Positions 6,955-49,529 of a stretch of DNA of 49,529 nucleotides are shown piece after piece (position 1 is the stretch's first letter; each line of letters opens with the position of its first letter). The notes under the pieces were generated by a model, which was not told the DNA's origin, did not search any database, and saw nothing but the letters and a program-made list of their open reading frames with translations. This DNA comes from Paramacrobiotus metropolitanus (Eukaryota > Tardigrada > Eutardigrada > Parachela > Macrobiotidae): positions 1 to 49,529 of the forward strand of contig NW_026570547.1 in NCBI RefSeq assembly GCF_019649055.1, in the 5' to 3' direction. The position numbers were made by a program, and so were the translations under genes.

Positions 6955-7210
6955 ACATCATATGACGTTACCCTTACGTCACTTCCTGTCATACCGTCGT
7001 TATCTGGCACAGTCACCACGGAAGCCCCACCCCGTCCTACCCGGCCATCCTCATATATAAGGAGGCCTTCAGGCCGCGAGTCAGTCAGCCCGTTTCTCAG
7101 CAGCAGCTTAGCTGCTTAGCTATAGAATTGTTGTAGTGGGCAAGCGTTTACGCAGTAAAGGTCATGGTCACACATGTGATGTCCAGTCGTTCATCATAGG
7201 TACACATAGG
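6955..7210 (+). repeat. LTR-like promoter repeat, copy 1
   Basis: This segment matches 13713-13917 over most of its length. The shared core is CCATCCTCATATATAAGGAG, then GCCTTC.GGCCGC and AGTCAGTCAG: a TATA box (TATATAAG) with an initiator-like TCAGTC about 30 bp downstream. CRE-like words (TGACATCA, TGACGTTA, TTACGTCA) lie upstream. Downstream, both copies keep AAAGGTCA (7157-7164 here) and a GTACAC.TAGG end. The layout resembles a solo LTR. I could not identify a target duplication, so the boundaries are approximate. Confidence 0.5.
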
Positions 7211-7261
7211 AACAGATCATCGCTGACCTTTTACATAGGGCTCATAGGGTGCAAAAGTAAA

Positions 7262-38539: not shown

Positions 38540-39205
38540 TCAGCAGGCATACCCGCATGGACCGAACCTAGAGGCATGCACCACGAAAACGAAACACTTT
38601 CTGATGGCATTACCACTTTCCCATGGACAAGGGGACTGTGTTTGGCGGGGGATGTTACCTGTGTTGATACTGTCGCCCGTTCGTATTGGGATCAGACCAG
38701 TGTGAAGGCCGAAGCGGCAGCTGACCACGCCGAAGCCAAGAAAGCAAGGAAGTACGGCTTCCTGTTGGGGCGATACGAGTTTACGGCTGTCGGCTTGGAA
38801 ACTGTGGCGTAGTATAGCAACCATGTTGCTAGCGTATGGTCATCAGTGTGAGACCATCAGTGTGTGTTTGGTCGAGCTGCAGTAAAGTACTAAGTCGTGA
38901 CAGAAATTTTCGGTAGTTTTGGTACATCGGCCAAAAGATTTGTCAATGAGACTGGGAAGAGGATTTCGCTACAAACCGGCGAGATTCGTAGTCTGGAGTT
39001 TTTGAAACAGAACATAACAATTCTCAACAATCTCTTTAACAATTCAACGTGGTGATGCTGCTTCGGTAATAGGTACCTCTAATGCTAGATCCAACTGTGA
39101 TCCAGATACGGAGACAGAAACGGAATCTATCCCGTGGAGTGAGCTATGCGATATGTATAGCGAACTACGCGGAATCGCGAAACGTCGCACCGCTAATAGC
39201 TGACT
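38540..39205 (+). pseudogene. non-LTR retrotransposon endonuclease remnant
   Basis: Plus-strand residues WTEPRG, LSDGITTFPW, AGDVTCVDT and KAEAAADHAEAKKARKYGFL match the family at 17570-18250. After a frame change the end LTIQRGDAASVIGTS is read to a TGA near 39205. RPD has become LSD. This dead copy marks the last unrelated sequence before the four-frame cassette. Confidence 0.65.
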
Positions 39206-39280
39206 TTTAATAATATTGAAAGTCTGGAGACCAGAAAAACAACAAGTGATCGGCACAGCTCGATCGTCAATCGTAGAACC

Positions 39281-39690
39281 AATTCAACAGTGTGTAACAC
39301 TGTGCAGCACGTGCTAAGCCGCGCCCACTAACACAACTCAAGCTAGCCAATCAGAGCGAGACACGTCACAGACCGTAATCCGAAGGCGTAGCGCCTAGCG
39401 CCACGGGCGTGAACGCTAGTGAGCCTCGTCTCACATGCCTCTGGGGGATGCCGAGCTCCGTTGAGGCTGGACACACTCGAATCCACGAAAAGACGGTTGC
39501 CGGTATCTGTGCGTGCTCAAAACATCAAATTCTCTTATTCCATTTATCACATCAATTCCAAATGCACTATGTGAAAATAAAGAGATCTGTATCAAAATAC
39601 TATTCCATATCAATTTTAATACAAAAACAGATCAACAGTTATAAGATCAACAAAAGTATTAATCAAATGTAGACTAGGATCCTCCATTTC
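39281..39690. other. possible terminal region of the four-frame cassette
   Basis: After the retroelement remnant the sequence changes at about 39281 to TGTGTAACACTGTGCAGCAC, which contains the palindromes CAGTGT..ACACTG and AGCACGTGCT and then CCAATCAG. AATAAA occurs near 39580. TG at this edge would fit an LTR end (TG..CA in either orientation). No matching second copy is in the window, because the cassette continues beyond the right edge. This is inference from position and composition. Confidence 0.3.
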
Positions 39691-40195
39691 TGACTCGTAA
39701 AGGTCACAGGTCCTGTCCACCGTTTTCCGCACTTTGGCCCATTCCGCTCTGTTGAGCAATCCCGCGCATGTGTAATGCGACTTTCATCACAATCAGCTTG
39801 AGAATCGGGTGCGTATCAAGTACGACTTAGGAATACTGCTTCAATCTTTGGAATACGGTGCGTATCAATTGTACGACTTTCAAATGAGATCCATTAAAGG
39901 TCATGGAGGGACGTCATGTAGACAAGCGTAGTTCGCTTCCTCCCTGGTTAAGGTCATCCTGTATTGAGATGATCCGTTGAGATGTGCGACACATTTTGGG
40001 TTAATGGTCCCAAAAGGTCATGCGACTTGAATTCCAATACAATGACTCTATTGGGCAATTGATGATCCCAAAGGTCATCTAACTTCTCTTCAACTTCCAT
40101 TAAAGGTCATGGAGGAACCTAGCCAATTTTCTGCGGCCATCAAGCACTTCTTCGCTTGCCTCCCTGGTAGAACTTGCAGGTTGACCTTTCCGTCG
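39691..40195 (-). promoter_or_regulatory. octamer-rich non-coding tail
   Basis: This holds six exact AAAGGTCA/TGACCTTT octamers (39699, 39896, 40013, 40070, 40102, and reversed at 40182) plus a near match at 39949. Two longer words recur: CCATTAAAGGTCATGGAGG (39891 and 40098), each followed by a CTCCCTGG block, and GTGCGTATCAA..GTACGACTT (39810 and 39859) with a CGTA/TACG mini-hairpin. It lies beyond the stop of the 677-residue frame, as a 3' untranslated region would. Confidence 0.6.
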
Positions 40196-40225
40196 CACAT
40201 CCAACTTCAATATGCCTCGAGCGGC

Positions 40226-40680
40226 CAGAGTGCCGGCAGAGTTTACCGTAACATCTCCGATGGGGCCGGCTAACTACCGCATTAAATTTACCCCACGATG
40301 CTTCCACATTAAATCTTTGACTCTTGTTCGCCGCTTGTGGCCCAACTTCGGTACGAGAGATCCGGCTTGATTACCGCTATTTCTCTCGTTGACTTATAAC
40401 ACTAATTCGCTTAGAGAGATTGCCGGCATAGTTTGCCGTAGCAACTCTAATGAGGCCGGCTGACTGCCGCATCAAGTTTACCCCATCAAAATTTCCACCT
40501 GTTGTCTTTCTCTTTTTCGCCGCTTGTGGCCCCCTTTCGTATTCAAGAGATCCGGCTTGATTACCGTAGTTTCTCTTGCAAATTTATAACACTGAATCGC
40601 TTAAAGAGGAGAGCCGGCTAATTGTCGTAATAACTCCCTTGGGGCCGGCTTTATAGACCGAATCAATTTCAACCCCAATC
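40226..40680 (-). repeat. ~190-bp tandem array of nested hairpins
   Basis: Eight nested hairpins follow a repeating order. Type A stems: 40353-40360/40382-40389 and 40544-40550/40572-40578. Type B: 40228-40230/40255-40257 (weak), 40411-40416/40445-40450 with a second stem 40420-40423/40441-40444, and 40604-40611/40634-40640. Type C: 40261-40265/40291-40295, 40450-40455/40481-40486 and 40639-40644/40673-40678. Each encloses an inner CGG(C)..(G)CCG hairpin. Equivalent parts are 189-191 bp apart, giving about 2.4 units. Between C and A each full unit keeps TCGCCGCTTGTGGCC. Stem bases co-vary: a G-C pair in the first A becomes A-T in the second, and the outer pair of C is A-T in copy 2 and T-A in copy 3. 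The array lies 3' of the 677-residue frame. Confidence 0.8.
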
Positions 40681-40864
40681 GATGCTCCCCATGATTTCTT
40701 TATCCTTTCTGATTCTGTGCTATAAATGCTGAAAACAACAAATACACAAATGCAGTTAATGTTAATATGTCACGTCGCCTTTATACAACACCATTTCTCA
40801 TTCTTGTGACGTACCGACAATTGCCGTAGACGCCCTTTTAATAGTGTGATCCTAACGATCAACA

Positions 40865-42898
40865 CTATTCCATTTCATTTAAATCGTCCTCGCCATCTCT
40901 TGGCGGGCGCTTCTTAGAGCTTTCTGGTTGGTTACGGTCAGACAGACGGTCAACTGGTTCCGTGGAATCAACTGCCATGACCTTTTCCGGATCAACTTCT
41001 CGCTGACCGCGACCTTTCCCTTGGCGACTGCGTTTAACCGCCTCTACCCGATGGCGTGCGTCATTTTCTTCCAGTCGCAGTCTTCGATTGTCGGGGTCAT
41101 CTGCTAGTCGACGCTGTACATCGGCGAGATTTTCCCGGAGCTGCTGGTTCCGCAGACCACGTCGTCCAAGCTGGTTAGGGGCGCGTTCTGGGCGCCGATC
41201 GCTTTTCTTCACAAGGAATTCGTCGATATACATTTCAACTCCGTCGAAGGGGTCGACGTAGTCACTTCCCATGGTGTCTTTGATCTTATTAACCCTCTCT
41301 TCTACCTGGGAGGCATGGCGTTGTGTAAGATTGCCCTTTTCCATACGTATCTTGCACTTTTTCAACGCCTTTCTTGCCGTATGGGCTATTCCAACATGTT
41401 CCATGGGTTCGCCCAATTTCGCCACGTGAGGTCGGAAGAGTAGTGGGATGTCGTCCTTCATGGTATTGGACACCAATTGGTTATGGGTCTTATAATGTGC
41501 CAATCTTGCAGCGAAAACCTTTTGCCCCATCCTTCTTGCGGCATGATCTTTAGGATCCACTTGTAACCCGATCGATGCTCTTGCTGCAAGCAACTTGAAG
41601 GCTGGATTCACGTGTCGTAATACAAACTGAGCGACATATTCTTGTCGTTCGGGATAATCTCTGTAACAGAATTGTGTCATCCCGATTGGGTCAGTCGTAT
41701 CCAGTGGCACGTCCAACAAATTCAGATCCAACAGGCTATGTAATCCGTTTCGTCGGATAGGGAGGTAACAATCCCTTGCTGAGTCGCGGGGAATGTATAA
41801 TTGACGGAAACTTCCTTGTTCCACTCCCTCTTTAATTTCTTTCGCATAGCCCGAGTCGAATAAAAATTGACGCAGCTGGTTCAGAATTGTATGGATCTTA
41901 TTCGCATCCGCCGAATCGTCTTCAATCCCCATGTATCGGCAGATTTCCGTCTTTTGTTCATCAGTGTCGCGCATATCATATACCATATCAATTGTATCGG
42001 GGTGTCGGTTATTGAATCGGGAAGTCGTTCGCCGATCGACTTCGCGACGTTCGTCCGGTTCGCGCTGACTTTCTTGTGCGCTTCGTTCTCCTGATTCTGC
42101 CTGCGGCGGTTCATTACTCGCCGGTGTAGGCGGTTGAAGGTCGCTGTCCAGAATAATGTTTCGTCGGTGTGTCACATTTGCTTGGGACGCTTCTGTAATT
42201 GAACTCGGTCCTTCCATCGGGTCGTCATGTTGTGCGGTGCTAAGGGTTGGATCCACCACGTGGACCGTTGATTCCATCCTTTGATATTTCGGGGGCGAAT
42301 CGTCCCGTTCCGCGCTCGATGACCTTTTGCTCGCGCCAGATTCAAAACCCGCGTAATACTTGGCTCTTTCCTGCCATCGTCTATCCTGTGGGTCTGGCGT
42401 TCGATTTCGCGTATGTTCGCGTCTTTTGTCCCATGACCTTTCGGGTGTTGACATCCTGACGTTGCGGTTACGGAATCCAACTTCCAACGGCACCTGATGA
42501 CCTTTCTTTTCAGGCTCTGTACGGTATGACTCCGCACGCCGTTGCTCTTCACGTCCTCTAGTCGCTGCTAGAATCTTTGCCGTGTCGATTTTTCGTTGGA
42601 TGCTTGTCTCCGTTATCTCATTTCCATGGCGTACCCATCCTCTTCCGCCACGGTAGTCTCTGTCGCGAGAACGCTCGCGTGACCTTTCGCTTCGGTAATC
42701 CCGTGTCCTTTCCCGGGAATGTTCACGTGACCTTTCACTTCGTCTTTCAGAAGTCCGCTCATGTTCCCGTGAATGTCCGCGTGACCTTTCTCTCTGCAGA
42801 GGCGAACGGGGTCGAGTAAACACATCGTCTCGTCGAAAGCCTCTGAGCGCCTGTAAAACATTGCTCTCGGTCTGGCGGGATTTACGCAGCTCCTCCAT
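40865..42898 (-). CDS. unknown 677-aa protein, last frame of the cassette
   Basis: I do not recognise this protein. It begins MEELRKSRQTES, 18 bases after the end of the preceding frame. Residues ~35-85 are an Arg/Ser/Glu-rich repeat region (RSRERSRDRD type), probably disordered and nucleic-acid binding. A low-complexity part continues to ~290. Residues ~300-560 look folded (DMVYDMRDTDEQKTE; LHSLLDLNLLDVPLDTTDPI; FVLRHVNPAFKLLAARASIG; MYIDEFLVKK). The end is basic, then acidic. Five of its six exact octamers lie in the disordered half and the sixth near the C-terminus; they are read as KGH, ERS and EKV. A coat- or gag-like structural role is possible from the basic tail and the position in a multi-frame cassette, but no motif proves it. 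No reverse transcriptase, integrase, protease or polymerase signature is seen. Confidence 0.7.
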   Translation of the reverse strand: MEELRKSRQTESNVLQALRGFRRDDVFTRPRSPLQRERSRGHSREHERTSERRSERSREHSRERTRDYRSERSRERSRDRDYRGGRGWVRHGNEITETSIQRKIDTAKILAATRGREEQRRAESYRTEPEKKGHQVPLEVGFRNRNVRMSTPERSWDKRREHTRNRTPDPQDRRWQERAKYYAGFESGASKRSSSAERDDSPPKYQRMESTVHVVDPTLSTAQHDDPMEGPSSITEASQANVTHRRNIILDSDLQPPTPASNEPPQAESGERSAQESQREPDERREVDRRTTSRFNNRHPDTIDMVYDMRDTDEQKTEICRYMGIEDDSADANKIHTILNQLRQFLFDSGYAKEIKEGVEQGSFRQLYIPRDSARDCYLPIRRNGLHSLLDLNLLDVPLDTTDPIGMTQFCYRDYPERQEYVAQFVLRHVNPAFKLLAARASIGLQVDPKDHAARRMGQKVFAARLAHYKTHNQLVSNTMKDDIPLLFRPHVAKLGEPMEHVGIAHTARKALKKCKIRMEKGNLTQRHASQVEERVNKIKDTMGSDYVDPFDGVEMYIDEFLVKKSDRRPERAPNQLGRRGLRNQQLRENLADVQRRLADDPDNRRLRLEENDARHRVEAVKRSRQGKGRGQREVDPEKVMAVDSTEPVDRLSDRNQPESSKKRPPRDGEDDLNEME

Positions 42899-42916
42899 AC
42901 GTTCTTCGACTGCTTT

Positions 42917-43632
42917 CTATATGTATGGTGCCGGAGCAAAACCCTTTTGCAGTCTTAACTTTTCCCGTAACAGCGCATCAAATAGGTCTTGTTGCATGGC
43001 CGCCGGATCGCTCGTCAGCGTATCGATTTGAATAATGAGCGACTGGCGTATCAGCTGTGCTTCGTCGTCATTGAGGCTGGCTGTCGGTACAGTCGAACTC
43101 GACGGATTGGGCTGCGTCTCTCGTGCGGCCTGTTCGCTCGCCTTTTGATTCGCCGCATTGATCTTCGCCCGGAGTTCGTCCTCCAGCTGTTGCCGCCGCA
43201 TCTTCTCTTGTTCTTCCTCAAACTTCTTCCGGTATGCGTCCGTCTGTGGGCATTTCAATGGCTCCAGAGTCTCATCCCAGCCGCTTTTCGTTATTCTGGA
43301 TCGCTTCCCGGTAGCGATCCTCGAGTAGCATCCGCTCCTCAACTGGGATGCTGCCATAGTTCCTCGCGCTGATGAGGTTTCGAAAACGTCCATGTTCCCC
43401 GTTTAGCTTCCGTAATCCCCACGAGTGAAACGATATGTGGGTCGCCCAACTTGTGAATGCATGCATAGCAGGGGAATTTCTTATCGACCTTTTTATTATT
43501 CCGTAAACAGTCCGGACACTTTGGGTTATAGCCCGTAGATCTGTTTATCTCCGATGCCGTTCCTGAGCTTTTAGGAGTGGCTTGACCTTTCTGTGCCATC
43601 TTCTCCGTTTTAAATCTGCAATCAGAAAACAA
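42917..43632 (-). pseudogene. Cys-motif protein broken across three frames
   Basis: A Cys-x2-Cys pair followed by another (CPDC..CYAC, a likely zinc ribbon or knuckle) is read from Met at about 43599 in one frame. Apparent continuation is in a second frame (RNLISARNYGSIPVEERM, ~43390-43280), then in a third (LEPLKCPQTDAYRKKFEEEQ, helical, Gln/Glu-rich, to 42917). Each alternative frame is open, and the composition stays coding-like through both shifts. Two indels, true decay, programmed frameshifts or small unrecognised introns could explain it; TTCTGATTGCAG just after 43632 looks like a splice acceptor. One octamer lies near the start (read as QKGQ). Function unknown. Confidence 0.55.
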
Positions 43633-43960
43633 TCCGTCATAATAACCTTTCCACGTTAATCGTTTCCATCTTATCCATTATCAAGGCTTCTCTAGCATTT
43701 TTACGCCTATTCCACTACTGAGCTGAGACTTTCCTAGCTCCTGCTGCCCTTTCTATCACTGTAACGTGGTGACCTTTCTCAACGTTATCAGCACTTTCTG
43801 ACTACTGTGACCTTTTCTATTAGTCTTATCGCTGCTAATTCTCGCGTTAACCTCTTCACTTTCAATTTTCCATAAAGTTTTTCCCATTCGTTTTTAACTA
43901 TTTTATGCTTTTCTGTAATATGCAGGGTTCATTACTCGCTGCATATTACACTCGTTCCAT
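43633..43960 (-). other. intergenic spacer with two octamers
   Basis: This 328-base gap between the 1637-residue frame and the Cys-motif frame contains TGACCTTT at 43770 and 43808. It has no reading frame of note. On the minus strand both octamers lie roughly 170-215 bases upstream of the next start. Confidence 0.5.
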
Positions 43961-46900
43961 TCACTCAGGCTCCTTCGCCGACGGTTTATACGGCTTGAAG
44001 TCAATTCGGCCGTCCTGGTTAATATGAAGCACTTCATCTGCAATCAATGCTTCAACGGCATTCTTGATCCATTCTTTATCATCTTCAATGTTCAATTCTC
44101 CCAATTCGTAATGGACGGCCATGAAGTTCGAAAGGTCATTCCATAACACTCCATTGGTACCGCCAATGGCGTCTAAAGCCACATCTGTGATGGCTATCTT
44201 CCATGCCTCCAATTCCATTTTCAGTCTGGGCGTGCGGTCCTGTCCCTGTTTCGGAAGGTAGTAAATAATCTTGTTGTCTTTGTCGTATTTACATCCCAGT
44301 CTTCCTTCCTTGTATGCTCGTTTGAGGACTCGCTCGGTCATACTGAGTGATGACCTCCCGTTCGAGTTTTCCGCGACCCGTCTCTTCAAGTCTGGGCCAA
44401 GCATTTCGCCATCTCCACTGTTCTGAAGCGCCGCTTGGACTTCGCTCCATGTCCGGTTAGTAACATCCAACGGTGCGCCTAACGTATAATCTGTCGGCTC
44501 TTTCGTTTTTGTACCGCTAGTCGCCGTTTTCTGGGGGGATATTGCCGAGTCCGTCGGGTCTGTTGTCTCCGTTTCGTCAATCTTCAGTTTTGCCATTGAG
44601 CCAGATGATAACTGCGCGGATTTCGGTTCGTCAGCTTTATCTTTCTGTGGTAAAGTCTCATGACCTCCCACTTCACCTGCCGACTTCGACCGCTCTTTCT
44701 CAAAAGCCTCTTTCAATGGTGCGAACAATGATTTCTGATACACCTGTCGCGCAGAGGCCGCCTCTGCTTCTGCAGCTGCCTTGTCCATCGGGGGCATGGC
44801 CTTTTCTTTCTCCCGTTTTTCAGAAGTCCCATGACCTTTCGGTTGAGTTTCTTCCGTCACAGTTCCAGTTCCCGGTGTCTCTTGACCTTTAGACTGTTTA
44901 TCTTGCGCTGTCGATGGTTCGAGAAGCGTTTGTGTCGTAATGTCATCTTCATTTTCTTCCGAGTCCGAGTCCATTGGTCCTTTCTTTTTCGTCACTTTCT
45001 TAGAAGAAGCCTGGGTAGCTTCTTCTTCAGCTGTTAACTGTGCGATCCGATTTAGTATGGGAGTTGTCGGGTCTCCACTCAATGGCACCTTATCCGTCTC
45101 CTGGCTGTCGGACATATGACAGTGGACTTGTTTTTCCGGCGGTATTAGTCCTACTCTCGTATATCGAATCGGATATCCTTTATGTGCGTTCGTTGTCGAA
45201 AGGATATTCTGTTTTATCAGCCTTGGTAATACGCGTTCAGTGGCCGTATCAATTTCTTTGATCATCCCTTTCCCGTCATTCCAAACGGCATTGATGTATT
45301 GGCTAATCCGGTGACTCGTTGACCCCAACGGGCTTGTCATTCCCGCGATTGCCCTTTCTACTCGCATAGAGGTATCTTCGTTTGGAGTCGTCAACGACTT
45401 ATCCGAACTGGACGGTCTGAATAACTTGGCCTTATACGCGAAATTCGGATGTTTCTGGAGGAGTTTTCCCGCATTCCGAGCATATTCCAACACCACATCA
45501 AACTTCTGTTTGGTAAAACTACGGTGCTTTTCCTTCCTCAGATATTTCTTTAAGCCCGTTCTAAATCTAGACGTTACTGATGTGGTTCTGATTCGTGTAA
45601 AGTTCTTCTCAGCTCCGTTGAACGCGTCAATAATTTCGTCGATCGTGGTCAAGTTATCGCTATCGGGGTCTTCAAATTCCGCTTCATCTCCCGAGTAATC
45701 AAGTTCACTGTCACCGTCCGGTTCAATGTAAGTGGTCATTACCAGTTCGTCGATTTTCATGGCCTCCTTTCCTTTCTTTTTCAGCTTTGCGGGTTCGCTC
45801 TTTGCTTTTTTCCCTTTTTCAAGAGCCTCCGCTAGGCTTCCTGGTTCTGCAGTTCTTGATCTAGTCGTTTTCGGGTCCGTATGTGATCTCGTGCTAACCG
45901 TCGAAGTACTTGGAAGGCTTACTCCCGATGCTTCCGATTCACGAGACGTTTCTCGTTTTGCCTTCTCTCGCATCCCTTTCTCCTTGCGCTCTTTCGTAGT
46001 AGATGCCGAGATAACCACTGGGACAATCTGTTTCACAGCTATGACCTTTCCTTTAGATGTTGACGGCTCGGGCTCGGTGACCTTTAACTTTGATGTTGCC
46101 GATTCGATAACGAATCTCTTTGGAATAATAGGTGCGGATGACCCTTCTTCCACTTCACCGACCGATTCGTCCAATATTTCAACATCATGAGACGACGGTT
46201 CGTCTTTCTTCTTTCTCTCCTCCTTCTTTTTCCTTCGGCTTTCACTTTCATCGCCGCTCCTTTTCTTCTTATCTTCGTCTTCCTTACGTTTCGTTAGACC
46301 ATCACCTTTCTTGACCTTCTCGCGGTTCATGGCTTCTTCTAGTTTAGCCGCTTTCCTGGGTTTAACGACCACTTTAGGGGGCTGATTATCTTCCTCATCC
46401 AGTTCCTGATCTTCGTTGGCCGGTTCTTCTGCCGAGTCGTCACCAGCTTCCTCCTCGTCTGAATCATCCTGTTTCGGTGGTCGCCGGGTACTCCCCGTTG
46501 ATGCCGCTTCGGCTACAGGAGCCTCTGCCACCTCTCCGGCTCCACTTTCTTGTGCCGGGTGTTGGACTTGACTTTCCAAGTGCGGTGTTTCGACCGTCTG
46601 TCCCTGTGTGACGATCTCCCACAAAGGGTTTTTCTTCGCGTCATAAAACACCGTTTTATACGCTCCATTTTCCATTCTTCTTGTTAGTCGGAAATGGGCT
46701 TCATCTATTTCCGCTCGATGTCGCATCATACTGATCAATGTGTTCGCTTGGACTAGGGGATCTTGACGTTCACTTACTGGTATCAAGTTCCACAGCTGTT
46801 CCAGTGCTGCCCGATTAGCGTGCTCGGCGCTCTCTTCCGACACATCCCATGGAGCGTATGGAATCGGATCTCCTGTGATCGGGTCGACGATTACTGCGGT

Positions 46901-48874
46901 TACACATTCTGTTGTTCCATCGCCGAAGTGGAGTGTCAGCGTCACTTTTCTGCACGTCCCCTCGGTATATTTCAGGGTTGACTCGTAATCGTCTAGTGTT
47001 CGTTTATTCGGGTCTGAGTCTGCTGTCGGTTTCGGCCGAATTCTCTCCTTCGTCAGCAACTTCCCTTCCACTGTGTATGTATATGCCAGGTGGTCCTCAT
47101 TTGTGCCCACTTTAATGCGGATGTATGCGTTTTCTTCGGTCGCGACTTTGGACACTACATGTTTCATCATCTGAATGAGGACTCTCGGGTTATGACGTTC
47201 TTCCGGGGGAATGAACTGTAATGCCTCATTGACTTCTGTCTTTGACCTTTCCCCAATCTCAGTTTTAACTGATTTATCCGCTAAAGGGTTGTACGAGTCG
47301 ATCTCTTTATTCGTTGCTTTATCGACTATCCGAGCGGTGACCTTTCGTTCGTTATGGTCAGTACCAGTATATTTAACTGTAAAGGTCCGGCACTTCGGAA
47401 ATCGAACTGAAGCAGCTTCCGGATCCAACGGTGTGGGTGGTGCACTCTTTCTACCCACTGAAGTCGGGGCTTTACTCGTCGTGACCTTTTTCGTCCGCTG
47501 CTCCTTCTTGTCGCTTTCTTTTGGACTTGTTGTCGGTGACCTTACTCTTTTTCCGCTTTTTACGGTCCCGCTAGACGGCTCTGTGACCGAACTGGTACGT
47601 CCACGTATTGATCCTGCGGTGGAACTAGCCCGTGACCTTTCCGCTCGTTCGGTTAATTCTATCTCAATCTTTCTCTTTGTTTCCATGAGAGCACTATCCG
47701 ACATCTCCTCTACCGGTGCTTCGACTGATGCTCGTGATGGCCCTGCCGCACTGCTTACTGAGGGTCCCCTTTCTTTGGGGATCGTCTTAAGGAATATCTG
47801 TAACTTCTCGATCATCGGCGGCCATTTTCTGTTGGTTAGAGCCGGATGGTACTGTTTCATCGAGGCGATTCTGATCGCCAACTCTTTACGTTTCACTTCG
47901 ATGCTTTTAGTCTTTTCCTTCATCGCGGTGTGGACTGCTTCGATGATTGCATCCAGGCTCATTAATCTTCCATAGAATGCATGTTCGTCCTCAACTCGCA
48001 TATGGATTCTATAAAGATCCCGGCACATACGGTTGAAGTCCTGGATGGCTGCTGTATCAGCCGCTGTCAATCCTTCTTCAGTGCTCACTATCACGTTTAA
48101 TCGCGCATCATCGTCTTTCATATCTAGCGGGAGTTTCGGTGAATAATCATGCACCGTTGGTTCACCCGGGGGCGTTGCCCGTAGACCCTCTGGCCCGACC
48201 TGCTCCAAATTTGGGCCCAGCGACGGCAGTACGCCTCGCGGTCGTGGTGAATCGAACCGGTTTCCTCCTCGCCTCCCTCCTTTTTGTGGCGAGTTCCGAT
48301 GAGGTCTTTGCGCTCCCAATTGCTGTGGCGTCCTCAAACGCGGTGCTCCAATGTCCGATAGTGACAAACCTCCTGTTTCTGGGAAGGGTGGCAAGATCGG
48401 CGACGCCCTTTGTGACTGCACCGGAGTCGCTAACATTCCGCCAAATCCTCCATATCCCATAAACCGACTCGGTGTAGTCTGTTGCGGTGGCGGCATCAAC
48501 ATTCTTGCCGGTCCCATCGCTTGCGGCGGTCCCATCGGTGGGGTATACGCTCCTGGATGCGGTTGATAAGGGGCGCTCATTATTTGTCCCGAATACTGGG
48601 TTCCGGCAGGTAAGCCGTGGTGCACCCAGTTTACCGTGTCCTGATAAGTCGTCTGCTGTCCCGGATCGTGATACACATAAAACTCCGGGCCGCCATAATA
48701 ACCTCCCTGGCCTGGCTCGTTCTGTGCCGTTCCTGCTGACGACGTCGACCCTTCGCCATATGAAGTGTCGTATCCGTATTCACCTTCCATTCTTTTCGGG
48801 GTCGATGCCTTTAATGGATTTCCGATACTTTCCGAATCCGAATTCTCTGAATTCTGTCGTTCCAATCTATCCAT
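43961..48874 (-). CDS. unknown 1637-aa low-complexity protein with duplicated domain
   Basis: This giant frame is open for 4.9 kb. Residues 1-230 are Gly/Pro/Tyr-rich; ~250-390 helical (IQDFNRMCRDLYRIHMRVED). A ~120-residue module occurs twice: residues ~490-613 (CRTFTVKYTG; LQFIPPEERHNPRVLIQMMK) and ~640-756 (CRKVTLTLHFG; WNLIPVSERQDPLVQANTLI). Acidic (~800-830) and Lys/Glu-rich (~860-895) tracts follow, then a helical block (~1065-1250) and a C-terminal region (~1515-1633, GRLGCKYDKDNKIIYYLPKQG) that could be a winged helix. No enzymatic motif is visible. At least nine octamers lie inside, in different reading phases. Just before the start, TTACAG and AGGTAAGC resemble splice signals. It may be structural or nucleoprotein; the function is unknown. 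Confidence 0.7.
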   Translation of the reverse strand: MDRLERQNSENSDSESIGNPLKASTPKRMEGEYGYDTSYGEGSTSSAGTAQNEPGQGGYYGGPEFYVYHDPGQQTTYQDTVNWVHHGLPAGTQYSGQIMSAPYQPHPGAYTPPMGPPQAMGPARMLMPPPQQTTPSRFMGYGGFGGMLATPVQSQRASPILPPFPETGGLSLSDIGAPRLRTPQQLGAQRPHRNSPQKGGRRGGNRFDSPRPRGVLPSLGPNLEQVGPEGLRATPPGEPTVHDYSPKLPLDMKDDDARLNVIVSTEEGLTAADTAAIQDFNRMCRDLYRIHMRVEDEHAFYGRLMSLDAIIEAVHTAMKEKTKSIEVKRKELAIRIASMKQYHPALTNRKWPPMIEKLQIFLKTIPKERGPSVSSAAGPSRASVEAPVEEMSDSALMETKRKIEIELTERAERSRASSTAGSIRGRTSSVTEPSSGTVKSGKRVRSPTTSPKESDKKEQRTKKVTTSKAPTSVGRKSAPPTPLDPEAASVRFPKCRTFTVKYTGTDHNERKVTARIVDKATNKEIDSYNPLADKSVKTEIGERSKTEVNEALQFIPPEERHNPRVLIQMMKHVVSKVATEENAYIRIKVGTNEDHLAYTYTVEGKLLTKERIRPKPTADSDPNKRTLDDYESTLKYTEGTCRKVTLTLHFGDGTTECVTAVIVDPITGDPIPYAPWDVSEESAEHANRAALEQLWNLIPVSERQDPLVQANTLISMMRHRAEIDEAHFRLTRRMENGAYKTVFYDAKKNPLWEIVTQGQTVETPHLESQVQHPAQESGAGEVAEAPVAEAASTGSTRRPPKQDDSDEEEAGDDSAEEPANEDQELDEEDNQPPKVVVKPRKAAKLEEAMNREKVKKGDGLTKRKEDEDKKKRSGDESESRRKKKEERKKKDEPSSHDVEILDESVGEVEEGSSAPIIPKRFVIESATSKLKVTEPEPSTSKGKVIAVKQIVPVVISASTTKERKEKGMREKAKRETSRESEASGVSLPSTSTVSTRSHTDPKTTRSRTAEPGSLAEALEKGKKAKSEPAKLKKKGKEAMKIDELVMTTYIEPDGDSELDYSGDEAEFEDPDSDNLTTIDEIIDAFNGAEKNFTRIRTTSVTSRFRTGLKKYLRKEKHRSFTKQKFDVVLEYARNAGKLLQKHPNFAYKAKLFRPSSSDKSLTTPNEDTSMRVERAIAGMTSPLGSTSHRISQYINAVWNDGKGMIKEIDTATERVLPRLIKQNILSTTNAHKGYPIRYTRVGLIPPEKQVHCHMSDSQETDKVPLSGDPTTPILNRIAQLTAEEEATQASSKKVTKKKGPMDSDSEENEDDITTQTLLEPSTAQDKQSKGQETPGTGTVTEETQPKGHGTSEKREKEKAMPPMDKAAAEAEAASARQVYQKSLFAPLKEAFEKERSKSAGEVGGHETLPQKDKADEPKSAQLSSGSMAKLKIDETETTDPTDSAISPQKTATSGTKTKEPTDYTLGAPLDVTNRTWSEVQAALQNSGDGEMLGPDLKRRVAENSNGRSSLSMTERVLKRAYKEGRLGCKYDKDNKIIYYLPKQGQDRTPRLKMELEAWKIAITDVALDAIGGTNGVLWNDLSNFMAVHYELGELNIEDDKEWIKNAVEALIADEVLHINQDGRIDFKPYKPSAKEPE

Positions 48875-48997
48875 TAACTGAGCTTACCTTCTGTAACAAT
48901 GAAACAATAATGGTTAGCTGTCGTACGATGATGACCTTTTTACAGCTTCCCAACTCCTATTTTTAATGAAGTGAACCCTTATTCATGTTTATGTGGG

Positions 48998-49519
48998 TTA
49001 TTTGTCTTTGCGTCCATTAGTTATCCGATCAAGAAGTTCTTTATCGGCCGCATCTTCCACTTCGCCTTGCTGGGTCAGTAATTCCGTAGGAGTTATTCTC
49101 TTTTTCTTCTGTTTGACTTTTCGCTCGTCAATTGCTTTCGCTATATCACGGCCCAATTGTTCAGCTTTTGATTTGACCGCTTCTATCTCCTCTTTTCTCT
49201 TTCTTATGAGGTCATTTTCATTGCGTGGTTCGAAAAAATTCGGATCGCGCTCTGATATCTCAGCGACAGTCTGCTGTTTCAAAAGGTCATCTTTGTCTCC
49301 GGTAGCAGTGCGTGGTTCGAAAAAAGGATCTTGGTTCGCTTCAAGTTCTTTTTGCGAAGCGCGTTCGGCTACTTCATCTTCAGTTCCTGGTGACCTTTCT
49401 GCCAAATTTCCGGCTTCTGTATTCAATTTTATTGTGACTGCTGTTTCGAAATCCTTATCCTCTTTCCTTTTTCTTCCTTTTTTCTTTGTTGGTTTATCTT
49501 CGCTTTCACTCTTGTTCAT
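48998..49519 (-). CDS. unknown 173-aa charged protein, first visible frame of the cassette
   Basis: The start codon is at 49519, ten bases from the window edge, so upstream exons may exist. The N-terminus is very basic (KKKGRKRKEDKD), suggesting nucleic-acid binding or nuclear import. An internal repeat is visible (DPFFEPR and DPNFFEPR, each followed by a charged helix). The rest is a charged helical region ending LDRITNGRKDK. Two octamers lie inside, in opposite orientations (49282 and 49391). The stop is followed by a 123-bp spacer with an octamer at 48932, then the 1637-residue frame. No family recognised. Confidence 0.6.
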   Translation of the reverse strand: MNKSESEDKPTKKKGRKRKEDKDFETAVTIKLNTEAGNLAERSPGTEDEVAERASQKELEANQDPFFEPRTATGDKDDLLKQQTVAEISERDPNFFEPRNENDLIRKRKEEIEAVKSKAEQLGRDIAKAIDERKVKQKKKRITPTELLTQQGEVEDAADKELLDRITNGRKDK

Positions 49520-49529
49520 CCGAGTTTCA

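Follow-up and report, generated by a model that had tools for sequence, protein, structure and literature searches.

A nucleotide octamer dispersed and conserved through all reading frames of a 24-kb Ty3/Gypsy retrotransposon of the tardigrade Paramacrobiotus metropolitanus

Introduction

VANDALs are plant DNA transposons, and the Drosophila gypsy insulator is an array of su(Hw) sites in the 5′ untranslated region. In Arabidopsis VANDAL transposons, arrays of the VANC21 and VANC6 motifs (YAGTATTAY; AGTTGTCC/AGTTGTAC) are described in PMC5735166. Burro and Ogre are Gypsy-like elements of over 20 kb with extra coding capacity, the internal region of Burro reaching up to 25 kb according to PMC6431247. 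The octamer AAAGGTCA is given in PMC4777543 as the NBRE, a monomeric NR4A nuclear-receptor site. Here we describe a Ty3/Gypsy long terminal repeat (LTR) retrotransposon of about 24.5 kb in the genome of the tardigrade Paramacrobiotus metropolitanus, in which this octamer is dispersed through the whole interior. The window that was analyzed is the 49,529-nucleotide contig C327 (NW_026570547.1) of the 169.8 Mb assembly. Its minus strand holds the 3′ part of the element; the 5′ part is absent because the contig ends there, and the window shows less than half of the element.

Results

The octamer is enriched in the element. Exact matches on both strands numbered 33 in the whole window, a count reached by none of 100 dinucleotide shuffles (mean 1.6, largest 5), and 28 of the 33 were located within the element, from 39,699 to 49,398. 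The initial annotation had counted about 26 copies across this interval; the recurrence is real and larger than reported, and the count is corrected here to 28. A complete copy of the element was found at C32:880361-904877 (24,517 bp, with LTRs of 357 bp that are 100% identical). Between the outer LTR ends, the copies C32, C9, C87 and C167 carry 90 octamers each, and none in the LTRs. The fetched stretches contained 92, 90, 91 and 92 octamers. Outside the element lay 2, 0, 1 and 2 of these, and the agreement at 90 is probably a matter of luck; copy C7, the fifth, was covered only in part and left out of this count. In pieces of the C32 copy (23,159 bases), 89 octamers were found where an order-2 Markov model expects 2.0, and the commonest of the 24 one-mismatch words were GAAGGTCA with 7 occurrences (1.7 expected) and TAAGGTCA with 4 (0.7 expected). 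The gag-pol half, seen in other copies, is denser in octamers than the half in the window, and at least 67 of the 90 octamers of the C32 copy lie in open frames. Gaps between octamers in the C32 pieces average 228 bases (range 23 to 1,339, coefficient of variation 1.16), and the outermost octamers are about 1.2 kb and 0.6 kb away from the outer LTR ends in all four copies.

Within genes, all three reading frames are used, the octamer being translated as E/K-R-S, K-V-x or K-G-H/Q. Synonymous codon shuffles, in which both the protein and its codon usage are preserved, were performed 2,000 times for four frames of the window and 1,000 times for each of the other frames. In the window frames, 16 sense octamers were observed against a mean of 1.14 (largest 6), and 2 antisense octamers against a mean of 0.07 (largest 2). 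Sense octamers in other copies numbered 10 in gag of C32 (mean 0.86, largest 4), 26 in pol of C87 (mean 2.68, largest 9), 10 in the 3′ part of pol of C32 (mean 0.57, largest 5), 9 in open reading frame 3 (ORF3) of C32 (mean 0.65, largest 4) and 8 in ORF4 of C32 (mean 0.41, largest 4); the two pol sequences overlap in content. Antisense octamers in the same frames numbered 5, 4, 2, 1 and 0, respectively, with null means of 0.19 or less. Peptide repeats are ruled out as the cause, since the octamer occurs in three frames and exceeds the codon shuffles. The sense bias inside genes has the direction and size given by amino-acid composition alone.

The octamer is conserved in place among copies, with gains and losses. 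A codon alignment of ORF3 was made from 20 copies in three clades, with 72-78% nucleotide identity between clades (about 76%). Octamers were kept between clades in 1,348 of 2,073 comparisons (65%), against 14% for other 8-mers (12-18% by frame). Where the amino acids were identical, the fractions kept by frame were 0.97, 0.96 and 0.80 for octamers and 0.37, 0.25 and 0.25 for other 8-mers, and one-mismatch words were kept at 0.17, 0.48 and 0.03. Individual codons were retained better inside octamers than outside: AGG (Arg) 0.98 and 0.57, TCA 0.98 and 0.70, GTC 0.81 and 0.46, GGT (Gly) 0.96 and 0.46, AAA 0.97 and 0.70, and AAG 0.80 and 0.61, respectively. Among the 31 ORF3 words with at least 400 comparisons, the octamer ranks 4th, and the three words above it share its letters. 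ORF3 has 19 octamer columns. Seven of them are occupied in all three clades, in 13 to 19 of the 20 copies, and in the others octamers were gained or lost. Thirteen of the 19 columns are gap-free in every copy, absences of the octamer being base changes, and six are gapped in some copies. In the leader and gag of five copies, octamers were kept in 370 of 442 cases, against 26% of other 8-mers. The copies keep not only the density of octamers but also their places.

The initial annotation had seen the octamer in all three frames, argued from the differing amino acids that selection or copying works at the level of nucleotides, and proposed codon shuffles and a comparison between copies as checks. 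All three frames are indeed in use; shuffling reproduced similar counts neither in the window frames nor in gag, pol, ORF3 and ORF4 elsewhere; and octamers are conserved in place while synonymous positions outside them drift. Selection on the nucleotides rather than on the peptides is thus supported, in every frame.

The word has a sharp boundary. In the C32 pieces, the base after the octamer was C in 56 cases, T in 18, A in 15 and G in none (n = 89), whereas G followed other NNNGGTCA words in 13 of 62 cases. Pooled over related copies, G made up 1% of 453 ninth bases, and it is avoided in both orientations of the octamer. Column identity was 0.92-0.97 in the eight octamer columns and 0.76-0.90 in the flanks. 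Genome-wide, AAAGGTCAC occurred 19,414 times against 3,461 for its reversed-letter control, and AAAGGTCAG occurred 4,042 times against 2,427.

On the coding (minus) strand of the element in the window, 21 octamers read AAAGGTCA and 7 are reversed. The orientation bias reported at first is therefore present, but inside genes it is the bias that amino-acid composition predicts (null 1.14:0.07). The 3′ tail holds 5 of the 7 reversed octamers and 1 of the 21 sense octamers, and nearly all octamers of the leader and tail are reversed. Local duplication can explain this reversed orientation at least partly, because the octamer array of the leader has a spacing of about 29 bases and the tail octamers have repeated flanking sequence.

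Both orientations are kept in most regions of the element. The retention of sense and antisense octamers was 0.79 and 0.87 in leader plus gag (0.26 for other 8-mers), 0.87 and 0.90 in one part of pol and 0.94 and 0.87 in the other (0.45 and 0.41), 0.80 and 0.80 in the tail (0.58), and 0.71 and 0.59 in ORF3 (0.26). The aligned ORF4 copies had no antisense octamer, so the comparison covers these regions. Antisense octamers are kept like sense octamers in most of them, suggesting that the octamer is most likely read in double-stranded DNA.

Deeper relatives were found with a leader pattern containing two reversed octamers, which occurs 786 times genome-wide (control 3) in several leader types. 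Three of these loci were fetched: L042 (family 2), L040 (family 3) and L041. The last, which holds 2 octamers in 2.5 kb, was not matched by any of the C32 element pieces in blastn and was treated as chance. Family 2 carries 21 octamers in 3 kb. Its gag is 36% and 32% identical in amino acids to gag of family 1, to which the window element belongs, with 50-55% nucleotide identity, and 10 of 24 two-way octamer comparisons were kept, against 32 of 2,103 for all 8-mers. Five gag octamers are common in place to the two families, and others were gained or lost. Family 3 (G000:C1:4007700-4010700) is closer to family 1 than family 2 is, with gag 51% identical in amino acids, and has 5 octamers in 3 kb. 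In a nucleotide alignment, each of the five coincides with an octamer column of at least one family-1 copy; in a coding alignment, the two sense octamers are not in register, in part owing to the cut points of the pieces. GATC occurs 47 times in family 3 against 23.6 expected. Most of this excess comes from the leader, with 20 against 5.2 expected, including one short GATCA tandem run; the two frames show a marginal excess (p = 0.045 and 0.08). At 18 positions with an octamer in gag of family 1 or 2 and not in family 3, GATC is present in five (background 8.3%, p about 0.014). These sequence comparisons suggest that the octamer may have changed to another word in the family 3 lineage. Separately, a distant Gypsy-like element (L017:5000-9901; protease region about 32% identical) adjoins the C7 copy. 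It contains no AAAGGTCA, and none of its 8-mers exceeds 4 copies, a figure for which no null was computed.

A typed NR4A query gave 38 matches in the host genome. Three neighboring exon-like matches on C45 are 83%, 76% and 67% identical, and the first two are the most similar among the 38. Host receptor capture had been one reading of the initial annotation. The idea of a captured receptor gene is not supported, as Pfam scans reported no nuclear-receptor domain in the element frames they covered. The octamer is identical to the NBRE as printed in PMC4777543, and the host has NR4A-like exons; the use of the octamer by such a receptor is a candidate explanation.

The element has paired LTRs of 337-358 bp that are 99.2-100% identical in all four copies compared (C32, C9, C87 and C7). 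Those of C9, C87 and C7 are 99.2-99.7% identical, and therefore the insertions are recent. The upstream half, seen in other copies, encodes gag and a Ty3/Gypsy-type pol. The Pfam order in pol is Asp protease, RVT_1, RT_RNaseH, Integrase_H2C2 and rve, as in Ty3/Gypsy elements, pieced together from two overlapping frames of different copies. In gag, which was placed by position, Pfam gave no family above cut-off. Downstream of pol are ORF3 (1637 amino acids) and then ORF4 (a 923-residue open frame in the C32 copy, L011), together about 2,500 residues beyond gag-pol. Neither ORF3 nor ORF4 matched a Pfam family above its cut-off, and ORF3 matched none at E up to 1. Weak matches below the Pfam cut-offs were set aside: FYDLN_acid (E = 0.002), midway along ORF3, and Minor_tail_Z and CotH (E about 0.05), in a 158-amino-acid frame. 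A protein search with ORF3 gave 11 matches, all from P. metropolitanus.

The features of the element in the window are all on the minus strand; octamer positions are exact matches, given with their own strand. The C-terminal end of pol (48998..49528) is cut by the contig end and corresponds to residues 1330-1478 of the 1479-residue C32 pol frame, with 63% identity. It contains an octamer at 49391..49398 (−) and an antisense one at 49282..49289 (+), and the spacer between pol and ORF3 contains one at 48932..48939 (−). ORF3 (43961..48874) has octamers at 47633..47640, 47482..47489, 47338..47345, 47243..47250, 46078..46085, 46042..46049, 44883..44890 and 44832..44839 (all −) and an antisense one at 44131..44138 (+). 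The spacer between ORF3 and ORF4 has octamers at 43808..43815 and 43770..43777 (both −). Octamers had first been placed in both intergenic gaps, and both spacers do contain them, but the supposed gap at 43,394-43,960 is partly coding, with ORF4 starting near 43,599.

The ORF4 region (40865..43599) is frame-broken in the window copy, so that the 158-amino-acid frame and a 677-amino-acid frame are pieces of one ORF4 protein, which is a single 923-residue open frame at L011:306-3074. The region has an octamer in the ORF4 start at 43583..43590 (−) and others at 42782..42789, 42728..42735, 42680..42687, 42498..42505, 42434..42441, 42320..42327 and 40978..40985 (all −). It also has an N-terminal CxxC...CxxC stretch and an RS-rich stretch. 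The latter (42613-42898; ERSRERSR) includes three octamers read as E-R-S-R, and part of this SR-like stretch is therefore written with the octamer. The 3′ non-coding tail (39436..40864) contains six octamers, as had been stated at first, five of them reversed: 40182..40189 (−), 40102..40109, 40070..40077, 40013..40020, 39896..39903 and 39699..39706 (all +). The tail also contains octamer-free tandem repeats of about 190 bp, in 2.1 to 3 copies, at 40227-40618 (to about 40650), with GGCCGGC and GGGCCACAAGCGGCGAA stretches; by eye, the C32 copy has similar stretches in both its tail and its leader. The 3′ LTR (39078..39435; 357-358 bp) has no octamer and is 98.9% identical to the LTR of the C32 copy. 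Outside the element, two octamers in opposite orientation lie 67 bp apart at 7157-7231. At positions 1-33300, two kinds of open frame recur, one containing the motif LPLPxELLxExFQxLDSIERxRCRRVC, which looks F-box-like by eye, and the other VDVLVDGxLQxGxVINxAEGGLIIDF; they suggest a host gene family array.

Discussion

We consider it likely that a sequence-specific protein binds double-stranded DNA at the octamer followed by A, C or T, and that selection maintains the roughly 90 sites in the element's interior. A reader protein would be bound on average once per 230-270 bp across the interior. It may keep the 24-kb body open and transcribable or, alternatively, mark the element as self against silencing, as VANC does for VANDAL; an open or self-marked body would let the 24-kb transcript be made. 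At one site per 230-270 bp and with octamer-free LTRs, this arrangement fits a protein that works locally over the entire body better than it fits a promoter switch. The reader would be a DNA-binding protein, and a host NR4A-type monomeric receptor has a small lead over a protein encoded by the element, without certainty. In related monomeric receptor motifs, AGGTCA is often followed by C or T, a pattern that would agree with the ninth base seen here. As a tentative further step, which we hold to be possible but short of probable, the octamer could be a dispersed address, written in every frame and both orientations and read by a nuclear protein, that would spare the entire 24-kb element from silencing, the word having started to change in a sister family.

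Several observations weigh against the proposal of a protein-binding DNA site and of its suggested reader. The spacing of the octamers is irregular. Their one-way orientation in leader and tail is not what indifference to strand would predict, and in ORF3 antisense octamers are kept less well than sense ones. One-mismatch words beat other words in frame 1 of ORF3 (0.48). The octamer ranks only 64th of the 152 ORF3 words with at least 200 amino-acid-identical comparisons, because words at one conserved spot reach 100%. Placement of the octamers mainly in open frames departs from the mainly non-coding VANC motifs. Nuclear-receptor sites are usually more degenerate than this octamer, and a single match of eight letters to the NBRE could arise by chance. 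The possible change of word in family 3 may also count against a host receptor. As for an element-encoded reader, no DNA-binding family was found above the Pfam cut-off in ORF3 or ORF4. The structure model of the ORF3 C-terminus is too poor to read, with a mean predicted local distance difference test score (pLDDT) of 45, and a winged-helix-like order of helices and strands seen there by eye is not usable for this reason.

In an element-encoded system, ORF3, ORF4 or Gag would bind the octamer as a self tag, and word and reader would coevolve. We regard this as conceivable, if somewhat doubtful. The roughly 2,500 residues of ORF3 and ORF4 without a Pfam family, the confinement of all ORF3 matches to this species, the octamer-poor and GATC-rich sister family 3, suggestive of a shift in word, and the VANC precedent (PMC5735166) speak for it. 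However, no DNA-binding domain is recognizable in these proteins, the evidence for the word shift comes from 3 kb of one copy, and the octamer equals a known host receptor site. A signal read in RNA seems unlikely. In this case, AAAGGUCA in the genomic RNA would be bound for packaging, for nuclear export, or for suppressing splicing or premature polyadenylation, consistent with the sense orientation of most octamers in open frames and with their confinement to the interior between the LTRs. Yet amino-acid composition predicts the sense bias in coding sequence, the octamers of leader and tail are almost all reversed, and no Rfam family was found at gathering score in window positions 38,900-49,529. 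The packaging or encapsidation word and the transcript-marking signal put forward in the initial annotation are weakened above all because reversed octamers, which are a different word in RNA, do not drift in leader plus gag, pol and tail.

A function on the double-stranded complementary DNA (cDNA), such as nuclear import, plus-strand priming or integration, would accommodate a double-stranded, orientation-independent word, and a 24-kb cDNA might need extra help. We nevertheless find it quite unlikely, as integration and first priming take place at the ends, which are free of octamers in all four copies; we know of no precedent for such a word. Sense words in the body might also pair with the reversed words of leader and tail, folding or circularizing the RNA genome, given that both words are conserved and the reversed copies are concentrated at the two ends. 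This is highly improbable: the ninth base excludes G in both orientations, a rule that pairing does not need, and wobble-compatible variants are not generally enriched in the C32 pieces, where GAAGGTCA (7) and AAAGGTCG (3) are above expectation and AGAGGTCA (2), AAGGGTCA (2) and AAAGGTTA (1) hardly so. We give the least credence of all to a mutational or copying process that keeps writing the octamer without function. Tandem duplication in the leader array and the six gapped ORF3 columns are in line with such a process, but codons that drift elsewhere are retained where they lie in an octamer, and 13 of the 19 columns differ by base changes only. Copying, also named in the initial annotation, thus accounts for the leader array with its spacing of about 29 bases, and not for most coding copies.

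Here each element repeats, dozens of times within its coding DNA, a second message that does not depend on frame and that persists while the surrounding proteins change. If a protein reads the octamer, the element would be an animal retrotransposon counterpart of the VANC self-recognition of plants. The idea is directly testable because there are an exact receptor site, recent copies and, in the ninth base, a control for specificity. A literature search at the level of titles and abstract openings, mostly outside subscription journals, found no report of the octamer in a transposon.

The leader array recalls the gypsy insulator, in which one protein-binding word is arrayed in the leader of a Gypsy element; the insulator is confined to the leader, whereas the octamers run through all genes. 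The octamer has the same eight bases as the NBRE, but according to PMC4777543 NBREs are response elements that belong to regulated genes and often lie in distal enhancers, and here about 90 are found in one mobile element and none in its LTRs. The length and extra coding capacity of the element resemble those of Burro and Ogre, for which the available text of PMC6431247 mentions no dispersed word; unlike them, the element has ORF3 and ORF4 without a Pfam family above cut-off and LTRs of about 357 bp. The closest likeness in kind is to VANC and VANDAL as described in PMC5735166: a short DNA word is dense within one transposon family, motifs are gained and lost among copies, partly via tandem repeats, and related VANDAL families use different words. 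Families 1 and 2 share the octamer. VANC motifs are mainly non-coding and in the same orientation, whereas the octamers are mostly coding, in three frames and both orientations; because of the coding placement, we do not file the element as a VANC-type member. The VANC reader is a known element protein, and here there are only candidates; VANDAL is a plant system, and here the carrier is an animal LTR retrotransposon. An array of a DNA word in a transposon family is thus a kind known from plants, and what is new is its presence in about 90 copies, largely in coding sequence, in a retrotransposon of an animal.

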